From positions 1-42,019 of the forward strand of contig JACQYL010000019.1 in the NCBI GenBank assembly GCA_016208165.1: a DNA stretch of 42,019 nt, read 5' to 3'. Below the pieces are notes generated by a model. The model did no database searches. It was given only the letters and a program-made list of their open reading frames with translations, and was not told where the DNA came from. The translations under genes were made by a program, and so were the position numbers. This document shows positions 5,460 to 35,347 of this stretch, piece after piece. How positions within the stretch are numbered: the first letter of the stretch is position 1; each line of letters begins with the position of its first letter. The stretch comes from Deltaproteobacteria bacterium. GTDB lineage: Bacteria > Desulfobacterota > Desulfarculia > JACQYL01.

Positions 5460-5492
5460 CGGGGGGAAACTTTTTTCAAAAGTTTCCCCCCG
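5460..5492. repeat. Perfect 15-bp-stem hairpin between cusB and cusA
   Basis: CGGGGGGAAACTTTT pairs perfectly with AAAAGTTTCCCCCCG around a TTC loop. It sits 29 bp beyond the cusB stop codon, where it could terminate or attenuate transcription into cusA or protect the cusB mRNA end. A diverged copy is at 1-30. The rest of 5219-5520 shows no gene. Confidence 0.7.
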
Positions 5493-5520
5493 TGACCGAT
5501 CTTCGCCGTACGAGGGGTGG

Positions 5521-6969: not shown

Positions 6970-7245
6970 GTTTGTCTGCCTCCATTGTTCGGGACATGGT
7001 CCCAATCTAATGATTCCTTAGGCGGAAGCGCCTTTTGTTTCGTCCCAGTTACCCGCGGGCGGATATTTCAAAAGGCCGCATATATGAAAAAATTCAAGCA
7101 GATCGGCGAACGCACGTCAAGGCGTTCTGAATCACCCTCCGTCGAACGAGGGTTCGAATGCTACATGCGTGAAGGCCCTGATCCTGGTCACATCCATTCA
7201 ATTCCAACATCCCAGAGATCGCAAAAAAGCATCCCCGACCTTCGA

Positions 7246-10556: not shown

Positions 10557-11051
10557 TCATTCATCTAATTTTCGGACCATTTCCGGCGTCACTTTGTCGA
10601 ACGTCAGAACGCGGTTGCCCCCATGGTCTTTCATGAATTCGTCCGCCTCTTCCTTGCTTTTCTGAGGAATCAATTCCCGCCCCATGGGTCCGTACACCGT
10701 GCTCCCCATCACATAGTAGGCCTTGAAACCATCGATAAGCCGAAGATCGTAGTATTCGGTTACCCAGATCGAAGCGACGTCGCTCCGGCTCTTTTTGGAA
10801 TCGTATTTATTGATATTGAAATAATATTTGAACAGGTCCTTGGCTCCGTCAAAGTACACCCGCGTACCGTCTTTGTGGACGATCTGAGCCGTCCAGTCCG
10901 GATACTTGGCCACAAACATACCGCAGACGGGACATTTGTCTTTAGCGGACGGCTTGGACGGCGCGAGGTCGGTCGGACTTTGACCTGAAGCTGCCGCTGA
11001 AAGACACAGGCACACAAGGAACAGCATGCAACGAACACTGAGTGCTTTCAT
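10557..11051 (-). CDS. NosL-like copper-binding protein (CPVCGM)
   Basis: A 164-residue exported protein of the NosL family, copper(I) chaperones best known for delivering copper to nitrous-oxide reductase. It has an N-terminal signal sequence (about 1-23) and the metal motif KCPVCGMFV (C40, C43, M45), followed by the conserved YFDGAKDLFKYY and LIDGFKAYYVMGS segments. Its ATG overlaps the TGA of the preceding NosL-like gene (ATGA), and GGAGG lies 7 nt upstream. With no nosZ in the window, the local multicopper-oxidase-like proteins are the obvious candidate recipients (inference). Confidence 0.9.
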   Translation of the reverse strand: MKALSVRCMLFLVCLCLSAAASGQSPTDLAPSKPSAKDKCPVCGMFVAKYPDWTAQIVHKDGTRVYFDGAKDLFKYYFNINKYDSKKSRSDVASIWVTEYYDLRLIDGFKAYYVMGSTVYGPMGRELIPQKSKEEADEFMKDHGGNRVLTFDKVTPEMVRKLDE

Positions 11052-11551
11052 GGGGTACGCCTCCCTTCCTTGTTGAGCTTCTGGAGGACGGTATCTTTCA
11101 TATCTTCAAAAGCCGCTTTGATCGCTTCGTCAAACGCGACCACTCGTCCTCCGGTCTGTTCCGCGTACAAACGAGCTTCGATTTCTCTGCCGAATGCGCT
11201 CTTGTCTCGTCCGGTTGTGGGATTTTTCTTGTCTTCTGAAATCACCCAATAGGCGGTTTCCGCATCGATGATTTCTTTGGTGTAGTAATCGCCCACGGCA
11301 ATTCCTTTGATCTGCCGATCAAATCGCATGGACAGATAGATGGCCAGACAATGGAGAGAGCGAGCGCCCATGGACTTGCCGTCCGTGAACTCAATGTAAA
11401 TCGGGGTCTGAAAGAGGTCCTGGAACGGACACTTCGGGAACTTGAATTTGAAATCCTGCGACCGTACCGGGTCCGGAACGGCGACGGGCCACATTCCGAG
11501 CATAAGAAATACGATCACAATCCGTTTAACGGTCGGGGGCACTATTGTCAC
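11048..11551 (-). CDS. NosL-like protein lacking the CxxCGM motif
   Basis: A 167-residue exported protein with a hydrophobic N-terminus (about 10-25). The fold pattern follows the two neighbouring NosL-like proteins: YIEFTDGKSMGARSLHC, GIAVGDYYTKEIIDAETAYWV and a C-terminal FDEAIKAAFEDM block that closely resembles the end of the protein at 11751-12269. The copper motif is altered to FPKCPFQDLF, with only C41 and C68 left. It appears to start at GTG (11551) with a weak ribosome-binding site, and it overlaps the next NosL-like gene by 4 bp. It may be a partner or regulatory paralog rather than a chaperone itself. Confidence 0.8.
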   Translation of the reverse strand: MTIVPPTVKRIVIVFLMLGMWPVAVPDPVRSQDFKFKFPKCPFQDLFQTPIYIEFTDGKSMGARSLHCLAIYLSMRFDRQIKGIAVGDYYTKEIIDAETAYWVISEDKKNPTTGRDKSAFGREIEARLYAEQTGGRVVAFDEAIKAAFEDMKDTVLQKLNKEGRRTP

Positions 11552-13484: not shown

Positions 13485-14732
13485 CTAGGGGCAGACGGTA
13501 GGTATGAACGTACCGAAATTATTCGCGAATACAATAACGTCCGCATCGTTCACCAATGTGTCGCCGTTCAAGTCCGCGCTGGGCAAAGCGGCATTGTAGG
13601 CTGCAAAAAACGCTACCAGGTCTTCGCCGTCCGCATCTCCGTCTCCGTCGAAGTCCGCCAGGTCGTTCACGAGTCCGGTCGGATCCTCGACGCAAATGGT
13701 CAGGTAACCCATCATTCCGCCCGATAGGGAACTCCCGTCGTTGGTGAGAAACAATCTTCGATCAAAGACGGGGATATCGCCGGTCACGTCGGAGGTGGTC
13801 TGTAGAATCGCGTCCATGGTCTTGCCCGGCGCCAGCGTCAGCAGGTACGTCTGTAACGGATAATTTAATGGGATGCCATCTTCGGCCACCTGTGACATGT
13901 ACATCCCGTAAATCAGCGGTATGTGGGTCTCGAGACCCGCATTAAGAAACCGCAGGAGCGCCCGGCTTCCCGCCACCAGCGAATCGAGGATCAGGGGCGC
14001 GACGTCCGTAAACGCTTCCCCATTGATCAGAAAATACGTGGGATGGTAGTCGATGGTGCTCGTCAGCGTTTTTCCGGGGCCGTAGGTGTCCGCGGCCACA
14101 TGGCCATGGATCACCGGATCCACTTCGTGGAAAAGCATGATCGTCTCATCATCATATGCCGTGGCCGGCGCACCGTAAGCATTGAGGGGCCCGGCGTCTT
14201 TCTTCAATGCGCCGTAGAGGCCCATCTGCCCCTGGACGGCCATATTCGTACCGCTTCCATAGAGGTACGTTCCCATCTTGACTCCACTCCAGGTATAGGT
14301 CACCGTGGTCGTCGGGGCCGTTTCCTTATCGAAGGAACGCACCCGTCCCGTCACGTTTCCCGCCGGTCTGGATCCGGTCGACAGAACGGCGTCCGTAAGA
14401 CCGTCCGTCCACACGGGGACCGCGGGGTCCAAAGGGGACTTCATCTGACCGCGAATCAGCAGAGAGGTTGGAACCGGCAATTCGTTGGTCAGGTTAATGA
14501 TCAGTGTATCGTCACCGGGAGGTACTACCAGTACCGGACCCGGAACGGTCGCCGTACCGCCGTCCAGGGCGTAGGCCCACATCGTGACCGCCGGACCGCC
14601 TTCCGGCATATTCATGATCATCACTTTGGCGGTCAGGTTATAGGTAGCGGCGGAGGATATCCCGGGTATGCAAACCACCAGGGCAATGACCAGAAGAATC
14701 CGCCCGAATGAAATGGTTCGAGTGCTGCGCAT
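13485..14732 (-). CDS. MCO-like cupredoxin protein, ligand-poor, with dockerin (C)
   Basis: A 415-residue secreted protein: signal peptide (about 1-28), two cupredoxin-like domains, then a C-terminal dockerin-like pair of calcium loops (DFDGDGDADGEDL about 360-372 and DLNGDTLVNDADV about 387-399). It keeps multicopper-oxidase framework residues (MGTYLYGSGTNMAVQGQMG, EVDPVIHGH, RRLFLTNDG) but lacks the expected HxH and HCH ligands: where active enzymes have Y-H-S/C-H it has YGSGTN, and LLIRGQ stands where HWHG is expected. It is probably a structural or binding subunit, not an oxidase on its own. The ATG at 14732 follows AAGGAGG. It directly follows protein B. Confidence 0.8.
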   Translation of the reverse strand: MRSTRTISFGRILLVIALVVCIPGISSAATYNLTAKVMIMNMPEGGPAVTMWAYALDGGTATVPGPVLVVPPGDDTLIINLTNELPVPTSLLIRGQMKSPLDPAVPVWTDGLTDAVLSTGSRPAGNVTGRVRSFDKETAPTTTVTYTWSGVKMGTYLYGSGTNMAVQGQMGLYGALKKDAGPLNAYGAPATAYDDETIMLFHEVDPVIHGHVAADTYGPGKTLTSTIDYHPTYFLINGEAFTDVAPLILDSLVAGSRALLRFLNAGLETHIPLIYGMYMSQVAEDGIPLNYPLQTYLLTLAPGKTMDAILQTTSDVTGDIPVFDRRLFLTNDGSSLSGGMMGYLTICVEDPTGLVNDLADFDGDGDADGEDLVAFFAAYNAALPSADLNGDTLVNDADVIVFANNFGTFIPTVCP

Positions 14733-14750
14733 GTTCGCTGCCTCCTTCAT

Positions 14751-16094
14751 TTAATTGACCGGCATCTCCATGGCCACGTTCGGGGGTTCTACAATCATGA
14801 AGGTGACATAACCTCCCGGCCAAATGTCGTTGTTCGTCAGCTCTTTTTCCGTGTGAGAATGCCACATATAAAAGAAACCGCCATTGGCGTTCAAAGCCGG
14901 GTGACTGGGGGGCAAGACTCCCTCGGCTCCCATAAACGGGCTCCCGTGATAGAACTGCCCGAACGAGAGATCGTCCCGGGGAGGAATAATGACGGGAAAC
15001 GGTTTCCCATGGTCCGTGAGGGCCAGACGCGATCCCGCGGCCCAAGGCCGGATCGTCGTACCCTCCTGGCCTCTGAGCAGGCCGAAGGCGTTTCCGCCCA
15101 GGTATCTCATTTTTACGACTTCTCTAATCGGGTCCAGGTCCGGTGTGGCAAATGCCGCCCTCCAGATGATGGCCCTGAAATAGCGATATCTCTGCGGGAA
15201 CAGTTCCTTGCCGCTCCACGTCCAAATGAGATCCGCCGTCTGTCCCGGTTCGATGGTGAATGTCGTAGCCTTCCACCCCAAATCCGGCCCGTTTCCAGGC
15301 GCGCTTTCCAGCATCCTTCCGTTGATGGCGATCACGGTAAAGTCGTTCCCGTGATAGTGCATGGGGTGTCCGTCCCTGCCTGCGTTGATAAGTCTAATCA
15401 GGAACTTGTCTCCTGCACGCATCTTCGGCTGGCAATTGTACGGCTGATTCGGCAGCCACGGCACCCCGGCGTCCGTCATCACGTCCGGGAAGTTGCGTCC
15501 GTTGATGAACCACATCACCTCAAAATAGTCGTTGGTATTGACCGAATCGTATTGGCCGGCCTCGACGTAGTTGTGAATAACCGGGTCCATTTCCGTGAGG
15601 AAGTACAGCTCCTCGTGACCGTAGAAACTTCCCTCGTGCCCATACGCGGTGTAGGTGTCCGGGTCGGTGAAATCATATCCAAGGGGCCTCACGATGATGG
15701 CGCCCGCGAGACCCATTTCCACCATGAAGTCCGGCCTCGTGCCGCAGTGGTACTGATAGCTGCCGGGATGATCCACCGTAAAGGTGTAGGTAACCACGCT
15801 GACTCCGCCCGGTTCGGCTTCCCGGGTCAAAACACCCTGAACACCTCCGGTGGCCGTTACTTTGTGCCCGGGAAAAACCAGGGACACGTTTCCGGCAGGG
15901 GCCGGCAGATTGTTTCTGAGGTTAATCGTGACGGTTTGGATACTTGCGGTTTCAGCAACGAAACTAAAGACCGGATTGGGAGAAGTCCCCGTGATACCCT
16001 CGATCTGCGCCTGCGCCTGGAACGCCCAGAAGCAAAGCAGCAGCGTTGCCGCACAGAGAGCCATCGATCCTCTCCTGCTTATGAATCTGTACAT
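14751..16094 (-). CDS. MCO-like protein with trinuclear-type His motifs, no T1 Cys (B)
   Basis: A 447-residue secreted protein with a signal peptide (about 11-30) and at least two cupredoxin domains. The C-terminal domain carries HPMHYHGNDF (H243, H246, H248) and WHSHTEKELTNNDIWPGG (H412, H414), which match the third and fourth copper motifs of multicopper oxidases, except that the type-1 cysteine of HCH is serine (HSH). The N-terminal domain has YHCGTRPDFMVEMGLAG (H116, C117). The HSHTEKE..NND..PGG pattern is, from memory, that of large MofA/OmpB-like metal oxidases. GGGAGGAGG precedes the ATG, 15 bp after gene A. Alone it lacks a full ligand set; with protein A it could be complete. Confidence 0.85.
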   Translation of the reverse strand: MYRFISRRGSMALCAATLLLCFWAFQAQAQIEGITGTSPNPVFSFVAETASIQTVTINLRNNLPAPAGNVSLVFPGHKVTATGGVQGVLTREAEPGGVSVVTYTFTVDHPGSYQYHCGTRPDFMVEMGLAGAIIVRPLGYDFTDPDTYTAYGHEGSFYGHEELYFLTEMDPVIHNYVEAGQYDSVNTNDYFEVMWFINGRNFPDVMTDAGVPWLPNQPYNCQPKMRAGDKFLIRLINAGRDGHPMHYHGNDFTVIAINGRMLESAPGNGPDLGWKATTFTIEPGQTADLIWTWSGKELFPQRYRYFRAIIWRAAFATPDLDPIREVVKMRYLGGNAFGLLRGQEGTTIRPWAAGSRLALTDHGKPFPVIIPPRDDLSFGQFYHGSPFMGAEGVLPPSHPALNANGGFFYMWHSHTEKELTNNDIWPGGYVTFMIVEPPNVAMEMPVN

Positions 16095-16109
16095 GGAGCG
16101 CCTCCTCCC

Positions 16110-17339
16110 TCAAATTAACGGGCTGATTACGATTTCCGTGATCAGTCCACCGCGTTCCTCTTGATTGTTGCACATAAAATTCAGATTGGTCGTGTGGAGG
16201 AAATAGGTTCCCGGCTCGACCCCGGCGGTATCCACAATCACGTCGTAGGCCTGCCCCCCACCCACGTTCAGCACCTGCACCTCGTAGGACGTATCGATAC
16301 CCGTTTCTCCTCGCAGAAGTTCGGCGCCCCGGCCCACGATTTTCATGGGAACGCCCAAGGTCGTGGTTATGGCCCAGATATCCGTGGTGGAGACGTTGCT
16401 CACTCGAAGGAGGATCTTGTCGCCCGCGGCGGCCTGAATCAGACTGTGGTACCGCTGGGAGATGAACCCCTCTTTGTTCACAATGGCGTTGGGATCGGCC
16501 GGCATGGCGTCGGGATCGAAAGTATTAATGTTATACGGGTATCCCCTGCCGTTGATCATGGGATAGTTGTCTTTCATGGCCGCGAAGGGCAAGGGCTGGA
16601 TCGTTTCACTGGCGTCGTGGAAGTTGGAATCGAACCCCGTTAGCTGGACGGGATAGCCCACGTCGTAGTAGGTGGAGCCGTCTCCGTCGTTGTATGCATA
16701 GGTGTACCCCGTGTGATGCACGAACCCGCCCGCGAGAACGGTTCCATTGGGAAGGTCGTCCTGCGCGGGGGTCACCCACAGCGGGCCGATCATGCCCATT
16801 TGCATGTGCTCGCTGGCTTCAACGTGGCAGTGATAGAAGTAGTTGCCCGGCTGGGCCGCGAAATAGGCGTACGTAAAACTGGCTCCCATCACAGCCGTTG
16901 GCGAGGGTTCGGGCAATCCGTCGAAGATGGGCGCCGCATGAGGAAACCCGTGCCAGTGAATCGAATGTGGATCGAACAGATCCGTGCGAACCGCCATCCC
17001 CACGTTGGTCATGGTGAGGTATAGCTCGTGACCTTCCTTGACAACGATGAGCGGCGCCGGACACCACGACTTGAGCGTATAGTTGGCCACCACCTCCGTC
17101 TCGAGGGTGGACGGATCCACCAACCCAAAACCCAACATGTACTGGGAATACCCGTCCGCCATCCGCGCGAAACCGTCGGCGCCCGCCAGGTGAATGCACT
17201 GAATATTGGGATCGTCCGAAACGCCGTCCATGTCCACATCTCCGGGACATTGGACGAAAGCGCCCTGAGCGCTCCATGGCCCCAACAGACCCAACAACAG
17301 CGGCACGATCAACAGCGGGTAAATGATGCGCCTATTCAT
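16110..17339 (-). CDS. MCO-like protein with complete type-1 copper motif (A)
   Basis: A 409-residue secreted protein: signal peptide (about 1-27), a calcium-loop-like CPGDVDMDGVSDD (31-43), then two cupredoxin domains. The first has HSIHWHGF (H125, H128, H130) and YHCHVEASEHMQMGM (H170, C171, H172, H178, with M181/M183), giving a T1 copper site and half of a trinuclear cluster. The second domain ends FMCNNQEERGGLITEI and has lost HCH. The HxxHxH plus HCHVEASEHMQMGM combination resembles the T1-bearing domain of MofA/MnxG-type large oxidases (recollection of the family, not searched). AAGGAG precedes the ATG. It is the first of three adjacent cupredoxin genes. Confidence 0.88.
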   Translation of the reverse strand: MNRRIIYPLLIVPLLLGLLGPWSAQGAFVQCPGDVDMDGVSDDPNIQCIHLAGADGFARMADGYSQYMLGFGLVDPSTLETEVVANYTLKSWCPAPLIVVKEGHELYLTMTNVGMAVRTDLFDPHSIHWHGFPHAAPIFDGLPEPSPTAVMGASFTYAYFAAQPGNYFYHCHVEASEHMQMGMIGPLWVTPAQDDLPNGTVLAGGFVHHTGYTYAYNDGDGSTYYDVGYPVQLTGFDSNFHDASETIQPLPFAAMKDNYPMINGRGYPYNINTFDPDAMPADPNAIVNKEGFISQRYHSLIQAAAGDKILLRVSNVSTTDIWAITTTLGVPMKIVGRGAELLRGETGIDTSYEVQVLNVGGGQAYDVIVDTAGVEPGTYFLHTTNLNFMCNNQEERGGLITEIVISPLI

Positions 17340-17420: not shown

Positions 17421-20400
17421 CTAATAGAATTCGTCGGCTCCGATATCGATGGTCCCGTTCTGCCTGCCCTGGCCGTCATAATCCTCAGGGACCGCAAAGG
17501 GCAGAGAAGCGGCATTCCCGCTGTTGTGCGGGAGTGAACCCGAGGTAATATGATAGTCACCGGTCACATAGAGCGGCTGGAAGGCGATATCGATGAAGTT
17601 GCCGCCTTCGTCCAACGCCGCCGCCGTATCAAACACCCTGTCCGGCAAATTGGGAGTCGCGACACTGTCGTTGAAATACGCACTAACGAAGGGATCGTCC
17701 CCGTCTCCGGGCGCGCCCGCACCGGGGTCTCCATCCACATTGGAAGCATGATAGCCCGTGGTGTCCGTCATGAAACAGTACCTCGGGTCGAGCATGGAGC
17801 CTGCCGGCGCGCCGAGCACGTCGAGGTCATTCCACGGAGGCGTCGTGAGCACCAACTCGCCGTTGGGGGCCATGCTCGCCGGATCCAGTTGCCATCTGAA
17901 CGACCGGTTTTTCCAGAGGATGTTGTTCAGCAGCAACGGATTCGAAAACGCGGCATACTCGGGCCCACTGGCGCCGCCTCCCACGGCCGTAGCGATGATC
18001 GAGGCCAATCCCGCGCTGTGCACCCTGGACAAAATACCCGCCGGTTGAGGCGTGGAGCTGGCCACCCCGTTCAAATCGGGCGGATTGAGCACCGTACCTT
18101 CCGTGGCGGTACTGTCATTGTAGGTGATCTGGTTATTAAAGAGCCTGGCGCCCGGGGAGTCCTGAAACGACACGGCCCCGGCCTTGCCCGTTACATTGTT
18201 CACGATCATGTTGTTATAGATATTCACCCGGTGCCAGGCGGAGGGCGTGACCGGCGAAGCCTGCACGTCCTGCCCGTTCACGTAGTACAGCCGGATTCCT
18301 CCGCCGTCCCCGGCGCCCGCGTAATTCCCCTGGATCAGATTGGCGTACACGTCCACGGAACCCGACCCCGGCGTCAGTTCTCCAGCAGCCGGCGAACTCC
18401 CGCCGATGGATATACCACCGCCGGCTTGTTCCCCGATGGTCTGGTGGAACTGGTGATTGAACACCACCTGGTTATTGGCGATCACGCCGCCCTCGCTCAG
18501 GCCTTCGTGAAGAATCCCGCCGGCTGATCCGGCGGAGAAATTAGCGCAGACGAAACAATCGGAAATGACGTAGTTGTCGGTTCCCGTATAGATTGCGATT
18601 CCTCCCCCGCCCCCTTCGTTGCCCGCCATTCCGGCGTTGAGGGCCCCGTTCTTGAATATCTCGTTATAGCGAACGGAAAGCCCGTCGTTTTGGGAGTCCA
18701 CCGGGGCCGCGAACGCAAAAGCGGTCACGGGATGCCCGGATCGAACGCCGCCTCCGTAGGTGCCCCAGTTGCCGTACAGACGGTTGTTACTGATCTCGAT
18801 GCCGGGCGCATAGCTGGCTACAAATATGGCGCCCCCTCGATCTCCCCCGGTAATCCCCAGACCGTCGATCAGGGCCGCGTTGGCGCCGCCGAATTCATTG
18901 GGTTGGGACAGGCTGATATCCGGCCCCAGCACCGTAATGCCGGCGCCCTGTTCCGTGGGAAAGAGTCCGGTGTTCGGGAACGGCGAGAAAGGAGTGTCCT
19001 GCCCCGGCAGTAGATCGATATCTCCCGAGGCTACCAGCGCGTCGATCTTATCGCGCCAAAGCTGGAGTTTGTTGGCCGGCGTGTTAAAGGCATTGATGAT
19101 GGCGCCTCGAGCGCCCGATCCCTGGAGAAGGACCGGCTTGTACATGATCACCTTTTCAAAATAAGCCCCCTGATGAATCAGTATGAGATCTCCGGGCGCC
19201 GCCGCGTCTATGGCGTCCTGGATGGGGGTGGCGTCCACGGCCGTTGGAGGCAGCACGTGACGAACCGTACCCGTGGCGCCCACGTGCACGGTGACCCCGA
19301 TCCTGGTGGAAACTCCGTTGTCGCCGCGGGTCACCACGAGCTGACCCGTTGAAACTCCGGCGCCGGGAACCTGGGCGGTAATCTGACTGTTTGTCCAGTC
19401 ACCCGGATTCACGGTAAGAGGCGCACCGTTCAGCGTGACCGTACCTTCCGTATCGCTGAATCCGAAGTCGCGATCGATCATCTGGGGTGGGGTCCCATCC
19501 CCGTCGTACAAGGGGTTCGGCACGCTTTCCGTGCCCCGGCTCGTGAAGATGAGTGCTCCGCCGCCGGCAGGTACGTAGGCCCCGCCAAAACCGTCGGACT
19601 GCACGTCCGGACCGCTGACGTAATCGATGACCGGCGTACCGTCGGGCGGCGCACAATCCACCGGAAACTCGTTCCTGGCCGCCCAGGCCGACGTGGGCAA
19701 CACCGGCGTATCAAGATACGTGGTCGTTCCCGGAGCAAACTGGAAGTCATAACAGGACTGCGTAAACTCCATACGGTAAAAGGGATCCACGACCAGTTCG
19801 AACGTGCCCGGATTCATGGGGTCTTCCTGGATTATCGGTCCCGCGTCGTTGATGCACACCGAGTAGATGGCCGGACTCATGCCGCTCTGCCAGGGCAGAT
19901 TCTGAGAATAGGTGGAAGGAACAAGCCCATTGTATTTGGAGAACTGATCCCCATAGATGCGCGCCACTTCCCGGCCCGTATGGTCCCGCATGGACACCGG
20001 GACGAAGGGTATGGACTTCTTTTCTCCGAAGCTCGGATTGATGGGGTCGCCTTCGCCTCCGAGATCGTTGTTGATGTTACCCACGAAATGGGCCGAGATC
20101 GGCACCGTGGTCTTCAGGTAAATATCCGCCGCCGCGTTGAGCGTGGACTTGACGGTGACCTGTTTGCGGTTGCACATTTTCACGGTCTGGCCCGCCAGGG
20201 CGCACGGCACGCCGGGAAACAGCTCGAGCTCCGCGTCCACCGGCACCGTATAGTCGTCCCCCGCACACGGAGGTGGAATGGCTCCGGGGACCGGCGCGTA
20301 TTCATCGCAGAAGTCCACGTTTTTGGACTCGGGCATCAGGTGCGAATAACCCGGAGGAGCCCAATCGACGGCGACAATATACGTACCCAGCTCGATCCCG

Positions 20401-22814
20401 CCGAATGCGTACCCTCCGTCAAAGACACCCGGCCGGACCTGGTTCCAACTCCGTAACCCGTCGAAACAATCGCCCGGATTAAGGCCGGGGGGCAAGTAGG
20501 GATCGCCCTCCAGCCCAGGGCAGTTCTCCGGCAGCGAGGCGTTCCAGTTGTCCGTGTGGGCGATCTGAACGGCGTCGCCCAGGTCGAACACGCCGTTCGT
20601 GTTCCAGTCTTTATCTTCGAGCCCCATGGCGCCGCCCGTTTCCCATCCGAAGGGGGCGTTGTCCACGTCCGCCAGGGTTACGCCGCCGCTCAGGTCGAGG
20701 TCGTCGATCTGTCCGTCGGGCGCGTCGTAAACGCCGTTACCGTTCGAGTCTATATCCTCGAGGCCTTTGGCGCCGCCCGTGGCCCATCCGTAAGGGGGAT
20801 TATCCACGTCGCCGTCTCGGTACAAGTTAACCTGTACGTCCGGAATGCCCGGTTCCCAAGGCTCGGCCGCGGCCAGTCGCGGATCGTCCTCCGCTCGGGT
20901 CGTAGCGTAAAACACAATTCCCGATATGCCGCCGTTGTTTCCGCCGGTATAGGCTTGTTTGCCCCACAGCAATACGTTGGTCTGGCCTGCATAGACCTGG
21001 AAAGCCTGGGTCAGCACCACACCCTCTTCCGTGCGGTCCATGCCGCCGCCGTCGAAAATCTGGGTCTGGGGAGTCACACGGCCGTATATGGGATGGGCCT
21101 GATTCGCCGTATCCACCGGTCCCCCCTCGTCCACCACCACTCGGAATCCCGTGGCGTTCAGGCGCGCGAAGTCGACTTCCGCCACCTGCCAGTGAAAAAA
21201 CGGAAAGATTTCATCGAAATTGGCGAAACCCGAAGAGTCCGTGGCGGCCGCCTGATAGATGGTGCCGTCACGAAATCGGAGATTTATGTTTTGTCCCGGG
21301 ATCGGGGTTTCGCCCGGATCCGGAACGCCGTTGTTGTTGTCGTCGTAGTACACATAGTTCCAGAGGTGGCTGAACCAGTCCGATACGGAAATCGTTCCCA
21401 GGTCCACGTCGCCGCCGCCGTCGGGCACCGTGACCGTGAGGAAACTGATGATCAGATCGAGGGCTTCGTCCCACATGACGAGCTGATACGATCCCGGAGG
21501 AACGCCCTCGATGGAGAATTCGGCCGTGTCCTGATTATCCGCAGGCTGGGCGTACACGCATTTACCCGAAGAGTCGTTCAGGCCCACCCAGGCGCCCGGG
21601 AAGGGCGCCCCGGGCGCGGTGGCCTGAAACAAGGGGGGCCGGTCCAGGTGCATATTGGCGATCCGGCCAGTGATCGTGGAGCCTCCGGGAGGACATACGG
21701 TGCCGTAAGCCGCCGTCACCACATTCAGGTCCAGACCGTCCACGTCTCCATCGCCGTCCGTGTCCGCGGGAAACACACCGCCGGTCTTCCCGAAATCCTG
21801 GGAGAACACATCGAGGTCCGCACCGTCGATCACACCGCTGCTCTCTCCGGTGGAGCTCACATCCGCGGGGCATGGGCCGAATCGGCTGAGGACGGTATCG
21901 TCGTACGTGGGACGAACAAATCCCATGAATATATGGGTGCTCGGTGTGCCGAACTCGACCAGAAGAGGCCCTCCGCCGACCGGTACCCACGCGTCGATGG
22001 TGGGGGTTCCCTCGATCGTGGTGGTTTGCTGCCAGTCCGTGCCTCCGGGAGGCACGCATCGTATCCCGTATTTCCCCGGCCCCATGTTCTTGATGAGGGC
22101 AAAACCGTTCGCGTCGGTGTATACGCTGCCGTCACCCATCTGGAGCACGGAGCCGTCGGGATTGTAGGTGGTGCCGATGGGGTTGCCGAAGGCGTCCGAT
22201 ATGGTCTGGCCGGCAGTGGCTCCGTATCTCCCACCCGCATCCTCGACGTACACCTTAAAACCCTGCAGGCCGCTCTCGGCCGGAAGGTTGGGGGAGTTGT
22301 TCACCGGGTGGTTGTCCTCAAAGACAAAGATGGAAAATTGGGCGGGCACTAACGCTTCGTTGGTGTAGAGGACTACTTCGATTCCCCAGGCGCCCGGTGT
22401 GCCGGTGTCCACCGTATCCGACCGGACCGCCGCTCCACCGATGGTGTAGCCCGCGACTTTGGACAGCACGGTGAGGGCATAGCGCTTGGTGTCGTCGATG
22501 ACGTACGTGGCCGTGCCCGTGTCCGTTTCTCCTTCCGCCACCACCGGGACATAGCTGGTGTGGAAATTCAAGGCAATCGATTCGGTATCGGGAGGCGGGC
22601 TTGTGGGATCGAAATGGCGCATGGTGTTTTCTTCCAGCAGCCAGCGGAAGCTGTCGATGGCGACGCCATTCTCATCCTTTACGGTGATTTCCAGAGTTAC
22701 CGGAGCTGCATACGCGGCGGAGCATAGGATGCATGCGCACGATACTAGTAGAATAGCCATGCGCGCACACCTGCTCACAAAACGGGAGCGGCGTTTCGGG
22801 GTCCCTGACTTCAT
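17421..22814 (-). CDS. Giant secreted dockerin/SdrD-like/beta-helix protein
   Basis: A 1797-residue exported protein, first gene of the leftward copper locus. The signal sequence (about 19-36, SAAYA) is followed by beta-rich regions; a dockerin-like calcium-loop pair (about 315-378, ..DTDGDGDVDGLDLNVV..); SdrD B-like modules (YYDDNNNGVPDPGETPIPG, about 490); two related acidic loops (GWATGGAKGLEDIDSNGNG and GWETGGAMGLEDKDWNTNG, about 680-740); an IPT/TIG-like domain (about 1065-1175); and a right-handed beta-helix (about 1180-1790) beginning IQDAIDAAAPGDLILIHQG and ending DIGADEFY. AAGGAG lies 7 nt before the ATG at 22814. It looks like a surface scaffold or adhesin. NosD is also a beta-helix protein, but size and modules differ, so I do not call it NosD. 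Confidence 0.85.
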   Translation of the reverse strand: MKSGTPKRRSRFVSRCARMAILLVSCACILCSAAYAAPVTLEITVKDENGVAIDSFRWLLEENTMRHFDPTSPPPDTESIALNFHTSYVPVVAEGETDTGTATYVIDDTKRYALTVLSKVAGYTIGGAAVRSDTVDTGTPGAWGIEVVLYTNEALVPAQFSIFVFEDNHPVNNSPNLPAESGLQGFKVYVEDAGGRYGATAGQTISDAFGNPIGTTYNPDGSVLQMGDGSVYTDANGFALIKNMGPGKYGIRCVPPGGTDWQQTTTIEGTPTIDAWVPVGGGPLLVEFGTPSTHIFMGFVRPTYDDTVLSRFGPCPADVSSTGESSGVIDGADLDVFSQDFGKTGGVFPADTDGDGDVDGLDLNVVTAAYGTVCPPGGSTITGRIANMHLDRPPLFQATAPGAPFPGAWVGLNDSSGKCVYAQPADNQDTAEFSIEGVPPGSYQLVMWDEALDLIISFLTVTVPDGGGDVDLGTISVSDWFSHLWNYVYYDDNNNGVPDPGETPIPGQNINLRFRDGTIYQAAATDSSGFANFDEIFPFFHWQVAEVDFARLNATGFRVVVDEGGPVDTANQAHPIYGRVTPQTQIFDGGGMDRTEEGVVLTQAFQVYAGQTNVLLWGKQAYTGGNNGGISGIVFYATTRAEDDPRLAAAEPWEPGIPDVQVNLYRDGDVDNPPYGWATGGAKGLEDIDSNGNGVYDAPDGQIDDLDLSGGVTLADVDNAPFGWETGGAMGLEDKDWNTNGVFDLGDAVQIAHTDNWNASLPENCPGLEGDPYLPPGLNPGDCFDGLRSWNQVRPGVFDGGYAFGGIELGTYIVAVDWAPPGYSHLMPESKNVDFCDEYAPVPGAIPPPCAGDDYTVPVDAELELFPGVPCALAGQTVKMCNRKQVTVKSTLNAAADIYLKTTVPISAHFVGNINNDLGGEGDPINPSFGEKKSIPFVPVSMRDHTGREVARIYGDQFSKYNGLVPSTYSQNLPWQSGMSPAIYSVCINDAGPIIQEDPMNPGTFELVVDPFYRMEFTQSCYDFQFAPGTTTYLDTPVLPTSAWAARNEFPVDCAPPDGTPVIDYVSGPDVQSDGFGGAYVPAGGGALIFTSRGTESVPNPLYDGDGTPPQMIDRDFGFSDTEGTVTLNGAPLTVNPGDWTNSQITAQVPGAGVSTGQLVVTRGDNGVSTRIGVTVHVGATGTVRHVLPPTAVDATPIQDAIDAAAPGDLILIHQGAYFEKVIMYKPVLLQGSGARGAIINAFNTPANKLQLWRDKIDALVASGDIDLLPGQDTPFSPFPNTGLFPTEQGAGITVLGPDISLSQPNEFGGANAALIDGLGITGGDRGGAIFVASYAPGIEISNNRLYGNWGTYGGGVRSGHPVTAFAFAAPVDSQNDGLSVRYNEIFKNGALNAGMAGNEGGGGGIAIYTGTDNYVISDCFVCANFSAGSAGGILHEGLSEGGVIANNQVVFNHQFHQTIGEQAGGGISIGGSSPAAGELTPGSGSVDVYANLIQGNYAGAGDGGGIRLYYVNGQDVQASPVTPSAWHRVNIYNNMIVNNVTGKAGAVSFQDSPGARLFNNQITYNDSTATEGTVLNPPDLNGVASSTPQPAGILSRVHSAGLASIIATAVGGGASGPEYAAFSNPLLLNNILWKNRSFRWQLDPASMAPNGELVLTTPPWNDLDVLGAPAGSMLDPRYCFMTDTTGYHASNVDGDPGAGAPGDGDDPFVSAYFNDSVATPNLPDRVFDTAAALDEGGNFIDIAFQPLYVTGDYHITSGSLPHNSGNAASLPFAVPEDYDGQGRQNGTIDIGADEFY

Positions 22815-23956
22815 TTCTATTCTCCTTGATCGAACCGAGTATCCGTTGAACGACCACATCCCCGGCCTGGATAGCCATTGTCGGATGGCCTTAACGGGTT
22901 TTATAGGTTTCGTGGATCAACCTTATTTTGTTTAGAACAGCATCGTTGTTACCATGGATGTGGCAGAAGCCGCACCGGTATTGCCGCCACCATCCGCCTC
23001 CGTCGCGCCCTTTTTCAGGTGTCCGATCTCCGACCCGGACCCCCAATGCATAGAAAGCCGTAATTTGTTGCCGAACAACAGCCTTCGCATGCGTTCAAAA
23101 CCTTTATGTGTTGGTGTGAATAGGGGATCTTTTCGAAAGCAAAAAGCCTGCTTTCCGGAACTATCGAGGGTTGTCCGCCACGCATTCGATTCAATTCATC
23201 CGATCTCTAATGCTAAGGGTCGTGTTTTGAATTGGACTTGAAATGATACTCAAATGATATTTATGAAGTTAAAGTCCTCTCCTGCGTACTTATCAGGAAA
23301 AACGGTCACCCATTCTAGGTGATGAACCTATTATCCAAACCATTTGTAATACATTTCCCATCGTTCTCTTTATCATGTCCCTAATCCTCCCTCCGTAGTG
23401 AGGGGCACCATGTTCCGGATGGCGAGTCGATTGCCCGCGACAGGCTTTTTATCTTTTGGCATGTGGGCTTTCATTATGCTTATATACACCTTAGAGGCTG
23501 TAAATGACTTTGTCAACCATTTCTGCGTCCTATCCGCCCAATTGGTTTCATTGCAAAATTTAACTCTAACGTTAGCAATAGGTTACGAACGAAACGGTCC
23601 GCAAGGATCTGATTTTTTTTGACAACCGACGCTTGGAAATATATAGTGACAAGTCAGAACCTGCTCGTGCAGATACTATCGCGTGTAGGACATTCTATAA
23701 GAGAATCTAGGAAATATCCTAGGGTTGGATAGGAAATATCTCAAAGCGCGCGCCGGTAATGCTATTGACTGTTCATTTTCTCCGACATCTTATGTATGAT
23801 CCGTCCGAATGAGAAGATCGAAAACGGAGGCGCCGCGCGCCCCAAACAGCAGCGAAAATACACGTTGGACCGAAAACATAGAATTTCGCTTTAACCTTTT
23901 TGAATGTTTCTGACTCACCTGTGGGATCGGTGAATTCCAACCAGGAGGAACAAGGC
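22815..23956. other. Divergent intergenic region, 1.1 kb
   Basis: This AT-richer stretch separates the leftward copper locus from the rightward cohesin-like gene and must hold promoters for both. A 74-codon open frame at 23398-23622 (+) has one hydrophobic stretch but no ribosome-binding site or recognisable motif, so I do not call it. The only clear structure is the operator-like element at 23707-23740. No consensus promoter was found with confidence. Confidence 0.6.
23707..23740. promoter_or_regulatory. Operator-like palindrome plus direct repeat
   Basis: CTAGGAAATATCCTAG (23707-23722) is a 6-4-6 perfect palindrome. Its core TAGGAAATATC recurs at 23730-23740, exactly 22 bp (two helical turns) downstream, which suits cooperative binding by a regulator. 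It lies 217 bp before the cohesin-like gene and 892 bp from the giant protein. Confidence 0.4.
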
Positions 23957-26206: not shown

Positions 26207-27843
26207 ATGCGACCATATCGAATCGGAGGCGTATTCTACCTGTACTGCATGGTATGGGCCAGCGTCTGTATCTGCGCTCCCCCGTTGGTTGCCGGGACCG
26301 TGTCTCGGGAACTTGAGCAGGTCCTGAACTCCGCCGGTCCCGAGGATCTGATCCCGATCATTCTCACGTTTCGGGAACGCGTGGATACGACGCAGTTCCA
26401 GGATCGGGATCTAAAGGTCCGGCGAGTCCGGTTGGTCCAAGCTCTCCGACACCGGGCCTCCGGCTCGTTGAACTCCCTGTTGAATCTCTTCAGCTGGACG
26501 CACCACACTTCCGCCACCTCTGGCTCATCAACGGGTGCGCCTTGTCCGTGCCCCCTGCCGCCGTTCGCCTGCTGGCCGACGATCCGGCCGTAGAGGCCGT
26601 CAAATTTGACGCCCGGATCGCGGGGCCGTCCATTCAAGCGTCGGGGTTCGTTGAAAAGGAGTGGAACCTGCGCACGATATACGCCCATTTCCTCTGGGAC
26701 TTGGGATATACGGGGCAGAATGTGGTTCTCGGGAGTCTGGATACCGGAGTGGATCTCCAGCATCCCCTGTTGCAGGGTCAATGGCGCGGAGGCGAGAACA
26801 GCTGGTTCGACCCCAACGGCGAACATGATGCGCCTTCTGACAGGTCCGGCCACGGCACGCAGATCATGGGACTCATGGTTGCGGGCGAAACCCCCGACGG
26901 AACGGCCATTGGAGTGGCCCCGGGAGCGATGTGGATTGCTGCCAAAATCTTCAACGACGCGGGAGTCGCGCCCCTGAGTTCGATTCACGCGGCGTTTCAG
27001 TGGGTTCTGGACCCGGACGGCCAATCGGAAACCGACGATGCGCCGGATGTGGTGGTCAATTCCTGGGAGTTTGCCGCTGCGAACAAATGCGTGGACGAGT
27101 TTCAGAACGACATCGACACACTCCGGACCGCCGGCATTGCGCTGGTGTTCATTGCCGGCAATTTCGGTCCTAACGCGGCCACCAGCGCTTCCCCTGGGAA
27201 CAACGGCAACACGTTCTCCGTAGGTTCCGTGGACTTTTTCTCCGAGGTATCCGACTTCAGCAGCCGGGGGCCTTCCGCCTGTGACGGGCGGATCTTTCCG
27301 GATGTGACCGCTCCGGGAGAAAGCGTTGACACCACGGACCTGTCCCTGGGCGGCTTCCCGAACATCGTAACGGTGGACGGAACCTCTATGGCGGCCCCTC
27401 ACGCAGCCGGCGCCATGGCTTTACTGCTCAGCGCCTTTCGCGAAGCGAGCATCCCGCATCTTGAAAACGCGCTACGGGTCACCGCTTTTCATCCGCTTTG
27501 CGCGGCTCCTGATAACGATTACGGATACGGGATTCTCAATGTATTAGGCGCCTATCTCCGACTGATTCACACGGTGGGCTGTCCGGACGATCTGAACCGA
27601 GACGGAATCGTGGAGGAAGCGGACATCCAACTGCTGGCTCGGGAATTCGGGGAATCGGATTGCGCCGGTGTAGGAGGCTGCGCAGGAGATATGAACTTCG
27701 ACAACCGGCTGGACGGAATAGACCTGTCCGAATTTGCCCTCCGCTATGGCGAAATCGCGTGCCCGGTTTATCCTCTTCCGTATGACTTGCCGCAAGGTGA
27801 TAGCGCCCGGGACGGATGCACGCCCCTCCCGGATGATCTGTGA
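26207..27843 (+). pseudogene. Subtilisin-like (S8) serine protease, frameshifted
   Basis: Two overlapping frames together encode a secreted S8 protease. Frame 1 (from ATG 26207) gives a signal sequence and the start of an I9-like propeptide (LVQALRHRASGSLNSLLNLF); the coherent continuation (QLDAPHFRHLWLINGCAL) lies in the -1 frame, so the shift falls near 26490, at CTCTTCAG. Frame 2 has the whole catalytic domain, numbered from TTG 26542: D67 (GSLDTGVD), H104 (SGHGTQ), N207 (IAGNFG), S282 (GTSMAAPHAAG), then dockerin-like loops (DLNRDGIVEEADIQ, DMNFDNRLDGIDL). The break could be a mutation, a sequencing error or programmed slippage. Its last 76 bp overlap the convergent hydrogenase-protease gene. 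Confidence 0.85.
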
Positions 27844-28307
27844 TCTTTGAAACGCCCCCCTTCCCCGATCTCGTCTCGAAGGGTCCGCATCAAATCCGGA
27901 AACGTGGCTCTGACCTGGGGTGAGAGTTCCAGGGACCAGTCGATGGTCGCCGGTTCCACGCCCAGGACCGTAACTTCGGGGGGCGTGTTCCGTTGCGTCA
28001 GTGAAAGGACCCGGGTGATGTCGAAACCGTGCATGGACGGAATGCATTTCGCGGACTCGAAAGCCTCGATCGGCATCCGATAGATGGTCCCGGGCGGGTG
28101 TCCTCCTTTCACCGCATCGATCACAACGACCCGTTCGGCTTCCTCCAAAGCGGGTAACGCATCGAGGACCGCCGTGCCAATGTCCATGACCTCCACATGG
28201 TCCGGACACCCGTCTTCCAACAGGGAATGGGCTGCGTGCACCCCCACTCCCTCGTCCGCCAAAAGCAGATTTCCAAGTCCCAACACCAGGATCTTCATCT
28301 TGATCAT
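27768..28307 (-). CDS. [NiFe]-hydrogenase maturation protease (HycI/HyaD family)
   Basis: Cytoplasmic endopeptidase that removes the C-terminal tail of the hydrogenase large subunit after nickel insertion. Numbering from MKILVLGLGN, the nickel-sensing residues are E16 (LLADEGVGVHA), D61 (VVVIDAVKGG) and H90 (SMHGFDITRVL). The frame holds 179 codons from the ATG at 28307; the MKILV start 9 bp downstream is equally possible. It lies downstream of the large subunit, whose tail after DPCLSCAVH is the expected substrate. The last ~25 residues (from about KDHRSS) overlap the opposing S8 protease gene and look like a read-through extension beyond the normal family end. Confidence 0.93.
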   Translation of the reverse strand: MIKMKILVLGLGNLLLADEGVGVHAAHSLLEDGCPDHVEVMDIGTAVLDALPALEEAERVVVIDAVKGGHPPGTIYRMPIEAFESAKCIPSMHGFDITRVLSLTQRNTPPEVTVLGVEPATIDWSLELSPQVRATFPDLMRTLRDEIGEGGRFKDHRSSGRGVHPSRALSPCGKSYGRG

Positions 28308-28390
28308 TTCCACTCTCACATCCGTTCACAGAATACGGACGGGCGCCTCCCGCAGGATGACGCCGGTCCGTAACATGTTTAAGGAGGGTA

Positions 28391-30136: not shown

Positions 30137-31240
30137 TTAGGAGTTCCTCCCGCAGTCCACGGGCGCGTCCTTGACGGACTTTTCAAAGGTTTCGACTCCA
30201 CAGTCGGCGCGCACGCGGCAGGGCACCGGCCGCGGATCGTGCAGCGATAACTTCCACTTGCCGTCGGACGCCGCCTTGGCGGATCCAAGAAGATTGCCGG
30301 AATAGGCGTCAAACAGTCTCACATTGGAGCCCTGGGATGCATTTCCCTCTAATCTCAGCTCCTTGTTATCCTTGCGCCATTCCGCCTTTTTAAACTCGAA
30401 TGGAAGGGCGCCCGGACCGACGGATCCGCAGTTCGAGGGCGCATCCTTGACGGCCATTTCAAGGCTTGTGCTTCCACAATCGGCCCTTACGCGGCAGGGG
30501 ACCGGCCGCGGATCCTTCCGCGTTGACTTCCACTTGCCGTCGGAGGCTGCCACGGCGGATCCAAGAAGATCGCCGGAATAGGCGTCAAACAGTTGCACGT
30601 TCGAGCCCGGAGACGCCTTGCCTTCCAGTCTCAACTCCTTGGTGTCATTGCGCCATTCGGCTTTGATAAACTCAAACTGCAGTGCTCCCGGACCGACGGA
30701 CCCGCAGTCCGAGGGTGCATCCTTGACGGCCATCTCAAGGCTTGTGCTTCCACAATCGGCCCTTACGCGGCAGGGTACCGGGCGTGGATCGGGCAGCCTT
30801 AACTTCCACTTGCCGTCGGAGGCTGCCACGGCGGATCCAAGAAGATCGCCGGAATAGGCGTCAAACAGTTGCGCGTTCGAACCCGGAGACGCCTTGCCTT
30901 CCAGTCTCAACTCCTTGGTGTCACTGCGCCATTCCGCCTTGCTAAACTCGAACGGGACGGCGCCGGGACCGGGAGTTTCACTTCCGCAGCTCTCCGGCGC
31001 GTTGTCCACGTCCCGCTGGAACGTCTGACCCTCGGATTCGGCTCTGATACTACAGGGAATCGTCGAGGGCTGGGAAACGGTGATGTTCCACAAGCCGCTG
31101 GAAGCCACTACCGTGGCGCCGATTAAGGCCGATGATTGGCTGTCGAAGATCTGCGCGGAAGCACCGGGTTTGCCTTCTCCACCGATGATGAGTTCCGACC
31201 GGTCTCCTCGCCATTCGGCTCGAGTGAGAACGAAGTCTCT
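30137..31240 (-). repeat. 276-bp tandem repeats inside hydrogenase small subunit
   Basis: Coding repeats 2, 3 and 4 span about 30677-30952, 30401-30676 and 30137-30400, and are nearly identical over long stretches (for example GGCGTCAAACAGT, GGATCCAAGAAGAT). Repeat 1 (about 30953-31240) is diverged. High DNA identity points to recent amplification and makes the copy number likely to vary between strains. The assembly could also have collapsed or expanded here. Confidence 0.85.
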
Positions 31241-32176
31241 CTGCATCTCTTCGCCGCCGGAGGCGATGTCGTAAAAAGGAGAAAACTTGTCCGGGAATCC
31301 GTTTTCCGTACAAGCCAGGCACACGGCATTGGCTCCAATGCACCAGTTGGTTCCGTTGTTCCATAAATGTTTCGGGCAGTCGGCCTGGGTTCTGGGTCCA
31401 TTGCAGCCCAGCTCCTTCAAGCAGCCGCTCTGGGCGAAGTTCCTTGCCTCTCCGTTTCCCTTCCGGGGACAGTTCTTGTGGACGTTGTGGGTATCCCCCT
31501 CGAAAAGGAACGCAGGCCTCCCTTGCGAATCGAGAGAGAGAGAGGCGCCGGCCAGAAACCGGGCGATGGTGGAAACAATCCAATTGGGATGCGGCGGGCA
31601 GCCTGGAATGTTCACCGTGGGAAGTCCCGAAAGCTGGGACACACTCCGGATGCCCGTGGGATTCGGGTTGCCGCCCGGGATTCCTCCAAAAGAGGAACAC
31701 GTTCCAACGGCGAGAATGGCCTGGGCGCCTGGGGCAAGACGCTGCACCGCTTCCATGGCCGTAACTTCGTGGGACTGTCCTCCAGCGTTCTTTTCGGTCC
31801 ATAGGAGACATGCGTGCCCGTTGAATGCGGTCGGGATGCCTCCATCTACAGCCAGAATGTACGGCCGCGCGGTCGCCTCTTCCAGAACACGGACGGCGAG
31901 ATCGCCGGCTGCGCCCATAAGGTTCGGATGAAAGGCGAGATTAATGGTGTTGATGAGCAGATCGGCGATATCCGTTGGTGCGGAGGTACCGATCATATTA
32001 GCCAGCGACACGGTGCATCCCGTGCAGTTGGCTCCGTTCAGCCATACCACGGTTGCGAGCCCGTTCCCTTCAGCGGCGAGCGCTTTGCTCAGCTTACCGA
32101 CCACCGAGGCTTCGAGACCCAGCGTGGCCGCCGAACCAATGCAGAACTTTAGAAAATCACGTCTTCCTACTTTCAC
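30137..32176 (-). CDS. [NiFe]-hydrogenase small subunit with four Ig-like repeats
   Basis: Electron-transfer subunit carrying Fe-S clusters. A Tat signal (GRRDFLKFC) targets it and its partner to the periplasm. Cluster ligands are visible: C51, C54 (NCTGCT), C160 (GTCSSFGG) and C193 (GCPPHP) for the proximal; H233, C236, C252, C258 for the distal; C267, C286, C289 for the medial. CTGC rather than CTCC argues against the oxygen-tolerant type. The catalytic part ends near residue 305. Four tandem beta-rich repeats follow (about 313-398, 408-491, 500-583, 592-675), the last three with a 92-residue period and FEF.KAEWR..KELRLEG, LFDAYSG, PVPCRVRADCG. No membrane anchor is present. It starts at GTG behind AGGAGG. 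It is about 370 residues longer than the catalytic part needs. Confidence 0.94.
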   Translation of the reverse strand: MKVGRRDFLKFCIGSAATLGLEASVVGKLSKALAAEGNGLATVVWLNGANCTGCTVSLANMIGTSAPTDIADLLINTINLAFHPNLMGAAGDLAVRVLEEATARPYILAVDGGIPTAFNGHACLLWTEKNAGGQSHEVTAMEAVQRLAPGAQAILAVGTCSSFGGIPGGNPNPTGIRSVSQLSGLPTVNIPGCPPHPNWIVSTIARFLAGASLSLDSQGRPAFLFEGDTHNVHKNCPRKGNGEARNFAQSGCLKELGCNGPRTQADCPKHLWNNGTNWCIGANAVCLACTENGFPDKFSPFYDIASGGEEMQRDFVLTRAEWRGDRSELIIGGEGKPGASAQIFDSQSSALIGATVVASSGLWNITVSQPSTIPCSIRAESEGQTFQRDVDNAPESCGSETPGPGAVPFEFSKAEWRSDTKELRLEGKASPGSNAQLFDAYSGDLLGSAVAASDGKWKLRLPDPRPVPCRVRADCGSTSLEMAVKDAPSDCGSVGPGALQFEFIKAEWRNDTKELRLEGKASPGSNVQLFDAYSGDLLGSAVAASDGKWKSTRKDPRPVPCRVRADCGSTSLEMAVKDAPSNCGSVGPGALPFEFKKAEWRKDNKELRLEGNASQGSNVRLFDAYSGNLLGSAKAASDGKWKLSLHDPRPVPCRVRADCGVETFEKSVKDAPVDCGRNS

Positions 32177-32616
32177 AATATACTCCTCCTAAGGGGTTTT
32201 GAGTCGCCTCTCCCTTCTTGTCAGGCGGATTGAATGGACAATAGCGGATTCCCCGATCTGATTGCTGACCAGAAACATAAGATTTTGGACGGTGCTGCGT
32301 GGCCCTCATTGTCTTAAACCGGGGTTCTTCGGGAACGGCGGCTTTCCGTCCTGCCGAAGGGGAAAAAACTTCCGGAAGCGGCAATATGTTCTCTTCAGTA
32401 CTTGTTACGGACCGGAGGATTGAAGATGTTTTCGCGATGCGGATCAACGCGGTATGGATCCTGTTGGGCGTCGCATCGCGGGGTGCTCCATTATCGATAG
32501 ACCCCCAGCGATATAGAACCTTGCACGGTTGCCTAATTTTTTGTATAAACTAGGCTGCGAGGGAGTAAAGCAATTCCCGTACCAAACGGATTTTCCAGCT
32601 TTCAAATCTGTTTTCA

Positions 32617-32645
32617 CTTGCCGGCACAAGAGTTTTGCCGGCAAG
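32617..32645. repeat. Perfect 10-bp inverted repeat
   Basis: CTTGCCGGCA and TGCCGGCAAG flank a 9-nt spacer. No T tract follows directly on the plus strand, though TTTTTTT occurs 18 nt later. It may be an RNA hairpin or a protein-binding site in the hydrogenase/regulator intergenic region. Confidence 0.5.
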
Positions 32646-33937: not shown

Positions 33938-35347
33938 ATGAGCAAAGTCCAAGAATACGCCATAAAGTGGCTCCTCGCAGGAGTTGACGACGAGGTATCT
34001 GTTTTGACGAACAAAGTATCCATATTGGTTGTTGATGACGATCCGGACATTCTCGGTATTCTGGAGTCCTGCCTATTGCCCCAAGGACATCAGGTTTTTA
34101 CGGCGTCCGGGGTGGACGAGGCTATGGGACTCCTGGGCGAGCATGAAATGGACCTCCTGATCTCGGACGTGCAGATGCCGGATAAAGGAGGTCTGCAACT
34201 GCTCGAGGAAGTTCGGAAGCGACAGCTCGGTCTCCCGGTGATTTTCTTGACGGGGTTCGGATCCATTCCGGAGGCAGTGCATGCGATCAAAGCGGGAGCG
34301 GTCGACTATTTGACCAAGCCGTTCAGCACCGAAGACCTGTTAAATATGGTCGAAAAGGTCCTCGATTCCGTAAGAGTTCCCGTAATGGAAGAAGCCTTTT
34401 CCTCTTTGAGCGAACGTTTCTATGGAGGGAACAGCCCGGCGATCCGGAAGCTGTATGACCTGATCGAGCGCGTGTCCTCGAGCGACGTAAATGTGTTGAT
34501 CCTGGGAGAAAGCGGCGTCGGCAAAGAAGTGGTCGCCCGCTTGATTCACGAAAGAGGGGTTCGCGCGGAAAAACCCCTGGTGGTGGTTGACTGCGGTTCG
34601 ATCCCCCGGGAACTCATGGAGAGCGAGCTGTTTGGACATTTAAAGGGTTCCTTTACCCACGCTGTTTCCAACAAGTGCGGTCTGATCGAAGCCGCTGAGG
34701 GAGGGACCCTATTGCTGGACGAAATCGGGAATATCTCTCCCGAGATGCAGGTGCGCCTGCTTCGGTTCCTGGAACAACGAAACATCCGTAAAGTAGGCGA
34801 TGTGAGGGAGATACCGGTGGACTGCAGGGTCATTTCGGCCACCAACACCGACCTTCCCCGCGAGGTGGAGGAAGGCCGTTTTCGCGAGGATCTATACTAC
34901 CGGCTCCGGGTTGTGATGCTCAAGATTCCCCCTCTGCGTGAAAGAAGAGAAGATATCCCACTGATTGCCGGCCGATTTGTCCGGGACATATGTAAGGAAC
35001 GAGGAGTGCCCGAGATCGAACTGCACCCCGCCGTGGTGGAGTGGCTTTGCTGTTACTCCTGGCCCGGTAATGTTCGTGAACTCAAGAACGCTTTGTCGGG
35101 CGCCATCGCGCTATGCGATCATCGCCTCCTGCTTCCCGAACATCTGCATCTGACGGGCCTTTCAGACGCGAAACTTCCGGACTCGGTGGCGGAAAATTGC
35201 CTTCACCTGGAAGAGAGTGAACGAAACCTGATTATCCGGGCATTGAAAGAGACGGGAGGCGTCCAGAAAGATGCAGCTCCGCTGCTGGGCATCAGTCCGA
35301 GGTCGCTCAACTATAAAATCAAGAAGCTCGGCATCAAACTCATGTAG
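33938..35347 (+). CDS. NtrC-type response regulator with GSFTHA loop
   Basis: A 469-residue cytoplasmic regulator: REC domain (about 26-140; acidic pocket VVDDDPD, phospho-acceptor D77, K127 in TKPFS), AAA+ sigma-54 interaction domain (Walker A GESGVGKE 190-197, Walker B LLLDEIG 258-264, arginine-rich RFREDLYYRLRV and PPLRERREDI), and a C-terminal Fis-type HTH (about 425-466). The sigma-54 contact loop, normally GAFTGA, reads GSFTHA (237-242); changes here often weaken or abolish sigma-54 activation, so it may work with sigma-70 or as a repressor (inference). GGGAGTGGA lies upstream of the ATG. No kinase gene is adjacent. The next gene, 194 bp downstream, encodes a secreted protein. Confidence 0.95.
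   Translation: MSKVQEYAIKWLLAGVDDEVSVLTNKVSILVVDDDPDILGILESCLLPQGHQVFTASGVDEAMGLLGEHEMDLLISDVQMPDKGGLQLLEEVRKRQLGLPVIFLTGFGSIPEAVHAIKAGAVDYLTKPFSTEDLLNMVEKVLDSVRVPVMEEAFSSLSERFYGGNSPAIRKLYDLIERVSSSDVNVLILGESGVGKEVVARLIHERGVRAEKPLVVVDCGSIPRELMESELFGHLKGSFTHAVSNKCGLIEAAEGGTLLLDEIGNISPEMQVRLLRFLEQRNIRKVGDVREIPVDCRVISATNTDLPREVEEGRFREDLYYRLRVVMLKIPPLRERREDIPLIAGRFVRDICKERGVPEIELHPAVVEWLCCYSWPGNVRELKNALSGAIALCDHRLLLPEHLHLTGLSDAKLPDSVAENCLHLEESERNLIIRALKETGGVQKDAAPLLGISPRSLNYKIKKLGIKLM

Follow-up and report, generated by a model that had tools for sequence, protein, structure and literature searches.

How a soluble periplasmic hydrogenase meets and keeps its electron acceptor is usually explained by diffusing c-type cytochromes. 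A different arrangement is raised by a locus of Deltaproteobacteria bacterium JACQYL01 (Desulfobacterota; Desulfarculia), in which the small subunit of a [NiFe] hydrogenase carries four C-terminal Ig-like (Big_6) modules: what does such a tail do on an electron-transferring subunit? The DNA analyzed, hereafter the window, comprises 42,019 nt (GCA_016208165.1, JACQYL010000019.1, 1 to 42,019). The small-subunit gene is a single ORF on the minus strand, from a GTG start codon at 32176 (AGGAGG ~8 bases upstream) to 30137; the coordinates assigned in a first-pass annotation, 30137-32176, are exact. That annotation knew of no described hydrogenase with this architecture, and full-text searches of open-access literature found no report of Ig-like domains on a hydrogenase small subunit. 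The window protein is almost certainly an exported hydrogenase with a genuine Ig-like tail, and the tail probably serves as a tether or docking module.

Table 1. Features of the hydrogenase locus in the window.
Feature	Coordinates	Strand	Evidence or remark
[NiFe] hydrogenase small subunit (679 aa), extended C-terminally by four Ig-like (Big_6) modules	30137..32176	-	profiles, repeats, model
Tat signal peptide (GRRDFLKF ... ALAA), residues 1-37 approx.	32066..32176	-	sequence
Catalytic small-subunit domain, residues 40-303, 12 Fe-S ligands	31268..32059	-	profiles, ligand alignment
Ig-like module 1, residues 314-407 (identity with modules 2 to 4, 35-40%)	30956..31237	-	repeat comparison, model
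Ig-like module 2, residues 408-499	30680..30955	-	repeat comparison, model
Ig-like module 3, residues 500-591, 91% DNA identity with module 2	30404..30679	-	repeat comparison
Ig-like module 4, residues 592-679, end of the protein	30140..30403	-	repeat comparison
[NiFe] hydrogenase large subunit, 477 aa	28443..29876	-	PF00374 1.4e-123
Maturation protease of the HyaD/HybD type, gene 3 of the hydrogenase operon	27768..28319	-	TIGR00072 1.8e-36
Possible sigma-54 promoter TGGTACGGGAATTGC	32570..32584	-	weak; 394 bases upstream of small-subunit start
Sigma-54-dependent response regulator, divergent from the operon	33938..35347	+	profile matches

By its sequence the window enzyme is an unexceptional [NiFe] hydrogenase. 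The small subunit matches Oxidored_q6 (1.5e-24) and NiFe_hyd_SSU_C (6.4e-21) in Pfam, and scores above the cut-offs of TIGR00391 (203.8 bits; cut-off 179.5) and PF14720 (74.9; cut-off 27). All Fe-S ligands had been placed in residues 40-300 by the first-pass annotation, and 12 of 12 are indeed present, within residues 40-303; 10 are invariant across 31 aligned homologues, in which the RRxF of the Tat signal is almost invariant. By reference to the well-characterized D. gigas and D. baculatum enzymes, these ligands are assigned to a proximal cluster (residues 51, 54, 160, and 193), a distal cluster (233, 236, 252, and 258), and a medial cluster (267, 279, 286, and 289). The medial-site residue in [3Fe-4S] enzymes is Pro; the window protein has Cys279 at this site, as in NiFeSe enzymes, providing a fourth Cys ligand for a [4Fe-4S] medial cluster, and thus three [4Fe-4S] clusters are expected. 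The operon continues with the large subunit and then the maturation protease. The large subunit has two CxxC pairs as Ni-Fe ligands (RICGVC and DPCLSC) and a C-terminal extension beyond DPCLSCAVH; because DPCLSC is encoded by Cys codons in an open frame, a [NiFeSe] hydrogenase defined by selenocysteine (Sec) is rejected.

The best solved relative of the small subunit is the NiFeSe small subunit of D. baculatum. Soluble periplasmic [NiFeSe]/[NiFe] enzymes (Desulfomicrobium baculatum 1CC1/4KL8; [NiFeSe] 2WPN) resemble the window enzyme in having a Tat-type small subunit, no membrane anchor, and ligands for three [4Fe-4S] clusters, including the medial Cys279. They differ in that NiFeSe enzymes have Sec in the large subunit where the window large subunit has Cys, and in that the solved NiFeSe-type chains stop at about residue 303 of the query, without Ig modules; the window small subunit also falls below the cut-off of the NiFeSe model (266 vs. 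470 bits). Membrane-anchored uptake hydrogenases of the Hya, Hup, and HoxK types likewise have a Tat-exported small subunit, but they possess a C-terminal transmembrane (TM) helix and a cytochrome b partner, neither of which is seen in the window. No TM segment is suggested in residues 300-679 (best 19-residue Kyte-Doolittle mean 1.35), and this region is modeled as beta modules, so that a membrane-anchored group 1 uptake hydrogenase is rejected. The first-pass proposal that the repeats replace a membrane anchor fails: the closest relatives by sequence are of the soluble periplasmic NiFeSe type, ending near residue 303, and because they are anchor-free the Ig tail is an addition rather than an anchor substitute.

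Four tandem Ig-like repeats of ~92 residues had been recognized from the sequence, and four are found in residues 314-679 (94, 92, 92, and 88 residues for modules 1 to 4), with a Big_6 (PF17936) match on the whole protein of 2.1e-17 and 63.6 bits (gathering cut-off 27.6); at E 0.01, 13 of 17 single modules match Big_6. The structure prediction that the first-pass annotation had proposed gives beta-sandwich modules: AlphaFold, applied to one module together with 16 homologous modules, predicts a seven-strand sandwich (mean pLDDT 94.7), and the full-length model repeats it four times at high pLDDT, with low-confidence links between the modules and a low-confidence stretch (residues 301-312) preceding them. 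Among the folds listed by VIA-align, the module aligns with the C region of the biofilm-associated protein (Z 8.8, rmsd 1.9, 71 aligned); other close structural neighbors (all at Z 8.8 or lower) are a large adhesion protein and adhesin modules of the SiiE type, and the list also includes many unrelated Ig-like folds. Searched against the sequences of solved structures, the module profile returns short matches only, the best being to surface-protein regions. Big_6 and adhesin Ig-like modules (PF17936) belong to the same sequence family as the four repeats, and no report of them on a hydrogenase was found. Exported proteins often contain modules of the Big_6 type, and sharing a fold is no evidence of function.

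The first-pass annotation also described conserved Cys residues, which holds within the window protein (two Cys are common to all four repeats, and a third to repeats 2-4) but not across the family. The Cys at alignment columns 62 and 84 are either present together or both absent, and occur together in 6 of 17 modules, all in the window protein and two module-bearing cytochromes; they are absent from the Acidobacteriota, Omnitrophota, and single-module homologues. The pair is consistent, at the level of sequence, with a disulphide; as a hallmark of the family, a disulphide is rejected on that count.

The joint between hydrogenase core and modules is not peculiar to the window. A scan of 84,980 named species genomes identified full-length relatives with four modules in one Acidobacteriota genome (L042) and one Omnitrophota genome (L055), and a small subunit with one module in WY2.bin100 (L043/L077); whole-genome searches added Desulforhopalus (L071/L076) and G621 (L098), with one module each. 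The architecture search suggested at first pass thus yields five other genomes with one or four modules, and a misassembly of a lone genome is rejected. Beyond the window genome, no match running into the repeats was found in the phylum sample (394 further genomes) or among 62 other genomes of its class; module-profile matches occur in only 14 of the 395 phylum genomes, no further Ig-like modules were found elsewhere in the window genome by the profile search, and a scan of viral contigs returned nothing. A same-class relative, G436, has a 68% identical core that ends without a module in GGDSGGCFISTASKK, which resembles the CFI-box sorting motif (NF041763, E 0.04, narrowly missing the cut-off), and its genome has no match to the module profile. 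The tail of another related small subunit (L006, from G236) ends in GGTNLNCNSCHDDD, with a haem-binding-like CxxCH.

The tree, built from 56 small subunits, groups the six module-bearing proteins with three that lack modules in a single clade (SH-aLRT 99), nested in a starred set of 17. The three module-free members end in a Pro-rich tail, a CFI-box-like motif, or nothing. In six of the nine clade genomes (window, Acidobacteriota, WY2.bin100, Omnitrophota, Desulforhopalus, and G621), the module profile matches only this hydrogenase; the Desulfocapsa genome has one marginal match elsewhere than on the hydrogenase (E 9e-4). One gain followed by several losses, or repeated gains, would both fit this distribution; the Desulfocapsa protein, which has a similar linker and a Pro-rich stretch without a module, looks like a loss. 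In the Omnitrophota genome, tatC is located near the operon, in agreement with Tat export. Directly upstream of the Omnitrophota [NiFe] small subunit is a gene for a HydG-type radical SAM protein ([FeFe] maturase; L055, 6448-7977, plus strand; 427.6 bits, above the cut-off). Tat genes are also located near the operon for the extracellular MIC hydrogenase of the archaeon Methanococcus maripaludis OS7, which is reported to lie outside the four known groups and, by description, resembles the window enzyme in having a Tat-exported small/large pair with its own protease; Ig-like domains are unmentioned in the main text on that enzyme (PMC6181927).

By analogy with known Tat-exported hydrogenases, we infer that the folded small/large heterodimer would be exported on the Tat signal of the small subunit, that H2 would be oxidized in the large subunit, and that electrons would pass along the three Fe-S clusters and on to cytochromes of the c type. 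The Ig tail with its four beads would have no part in catalysis; as compact beads on a flexible linker (about residues 301-312), it could bind an envelope component, thereby holding in place an enzyme that would otherwise diffuse freely. A physical tether of this kind is suggested by the occurrence, in a multi-phylum clade, of a non-catalytic Ig tail on the subunit through which electrons exit. The most plausible setting would be a complex with a multihaem cytochrome, for example, the decahaem TIGR04315-like proteins of the same genome, although a decahaem cytochrome as the docking partner is proposed only tentatively.

Several observations point toward a decahaem partner. WY2.bin100 encodes, immediately upstream of its Ig-bearing small subunit and on the same strand, a 10-haem member of the octahaem tetrathionate reductase family (TIGR04315 score 273.9 bits, which does not reach the cut-off of 375), and the window genome encodes two tandem homologues of this cytochrome (65 and 63% identical) on another contig. 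In Desulfoferrobacter, the sole copy of the module is on a 10-haem homologue of the WY2.bin100 cytochrome, and the hydrogenase is without a module. Of the 395 phylum genomes sampled, 6 encode a near relative of the small subunit (E up to 1e-80), and 4 of these also encode the cytochrome (E up to 1e-60), vs. 12 of the 389 others (Fisher p 2.6e-5; p 0.007 when the window genome is dropped and one genus enters as a single count), with cut-offs that were picked after the lists were seen and sampled genomes that are related to each other. A clear decahaem homologue is absent from the draft genomes of the Acidobacteriota, Omnitrophota, and Desulforhopalus members (G436 and G621 left out); thus, a decahaem partner is not universal in the clade. 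Furthermore, the N-terminal extensions of these cytochromes are of many kinds (judged by eye, Ca-binding-like and Big_2-like, among others), so that the Desulfoferrobacter case may be chance. The N-terminal domain of the Desulfocapsa decahaem cytochrome (L094) gained no support as a second instance of swapping (hhalign probability 0.6%, HMM E 0.1). We consider it doubtful that the tail acts as a dedicated plug by which a soluble hydrogenase is docked to a decahaem cytochrome, with the plug carried by the hydrogenase or by the cytochrome depending on lineage. If true, this would amount to a modular H2-to-cytochrome complex in the envelope, for periplasmic or extracellular electron exchange, and the hint of plug swapping makes the tether directly testable.

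Alternatively, the tail could be an adhesin stalk or spacer for display of the hydrogenase on the cell surface or within the matrix, employing a second export system and no specific redox partner; we view this as rather unlikely. It would accord with the bacterial adhesin Ig modules among the fold neighbors, with the CFI-box-like C-terminal sorting motif that takes the place of the modules in the same-class relative, and with the abundance of exported modular proteins in the window. However, the window protein shows no sorting signal or anchor at its C-terminus, export by Tat alone leads to the periplasm in a diderm, and the single module of three homologues is short for a stalk. The first-pass annotation had suggested tethering either to the cell surface or to a redox partner; the cytochrome evidence leaves the latter plausible, and the former gains no support from the sequence, in which no C-terminal sorting signal is seen and hydropathy suggests no TM segment. 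A role of the tail in homo-oligomerization or in stabilizing the heterodimer, without binding to any other component, is improbable: compact, independent modules that vary in number (0, 1, or 4) are what structural add-ons would look like, but close clade members maintain intact cores without any module, and an interaction surface is not evident from sequence. Non-functional accretion of repeats by recombination, or a mis-joining of contigs, is highly improbable, given that the frame is open throughout with synonymous and non-synonymous differences and that the same core-module joint occurs in five other genomes of several phyla, even though the 91% DNA identity of modules 2 and 3 makes copy number uncertain from short reads.

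DNA identity between the remaining repeats is 78% (repeat 2 vs. 4 and 3 vs. 4) and 48-50% (repeat 1 vs. the rest), and many of the differences are synonymous; a repeat finder also detects the 276-base period. Because repeats 1, 2/3, and 4 are clearly distinct in DNA, they do not represent a single copied read; a collapse of the kind that the first-pass annotation had cautioned about could still have affected the copy number around the repeat 2/3 pair.

The divergently encoded sigma-54-dependent response regulator is a candidate regulator of the operon. The possible sigma-54 promoter (Table 1) was rejected: allowing up to 2 mismatches, the window contains 26 such matches, a frequency that does not exceed chance. 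The long gap between the divergent hydrogenase operon and the regulator contains a near-perfect hairpin, CTTGCCGGCACAA/TTTTGCCGGCAAG, at 32617-32645.

Elsewhere in the window, three consecutive genes on the minus strand (13485-17339) encode proteins of about 410-450 aa that match segments of multicopper oxidases, with a weak dockerin match in the first as well; two NosL-like genes (10557-11551) and a CusA/CzcA-type efflux system (1304-7005) are located nearby, and together these genes possibly constitute an exported copper-handling cluster. Adjoining the multicopper oxidase genes is a gene for an 1812-aa exported protein (17421-22859, minus strand) with SdrD_B-like and TIG-like parts and a weak NosD-like match. 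A subtilase with a dockerin type I domain is encoded at 26542-27843 (plus strand), convergent with the hydrogenase operon.
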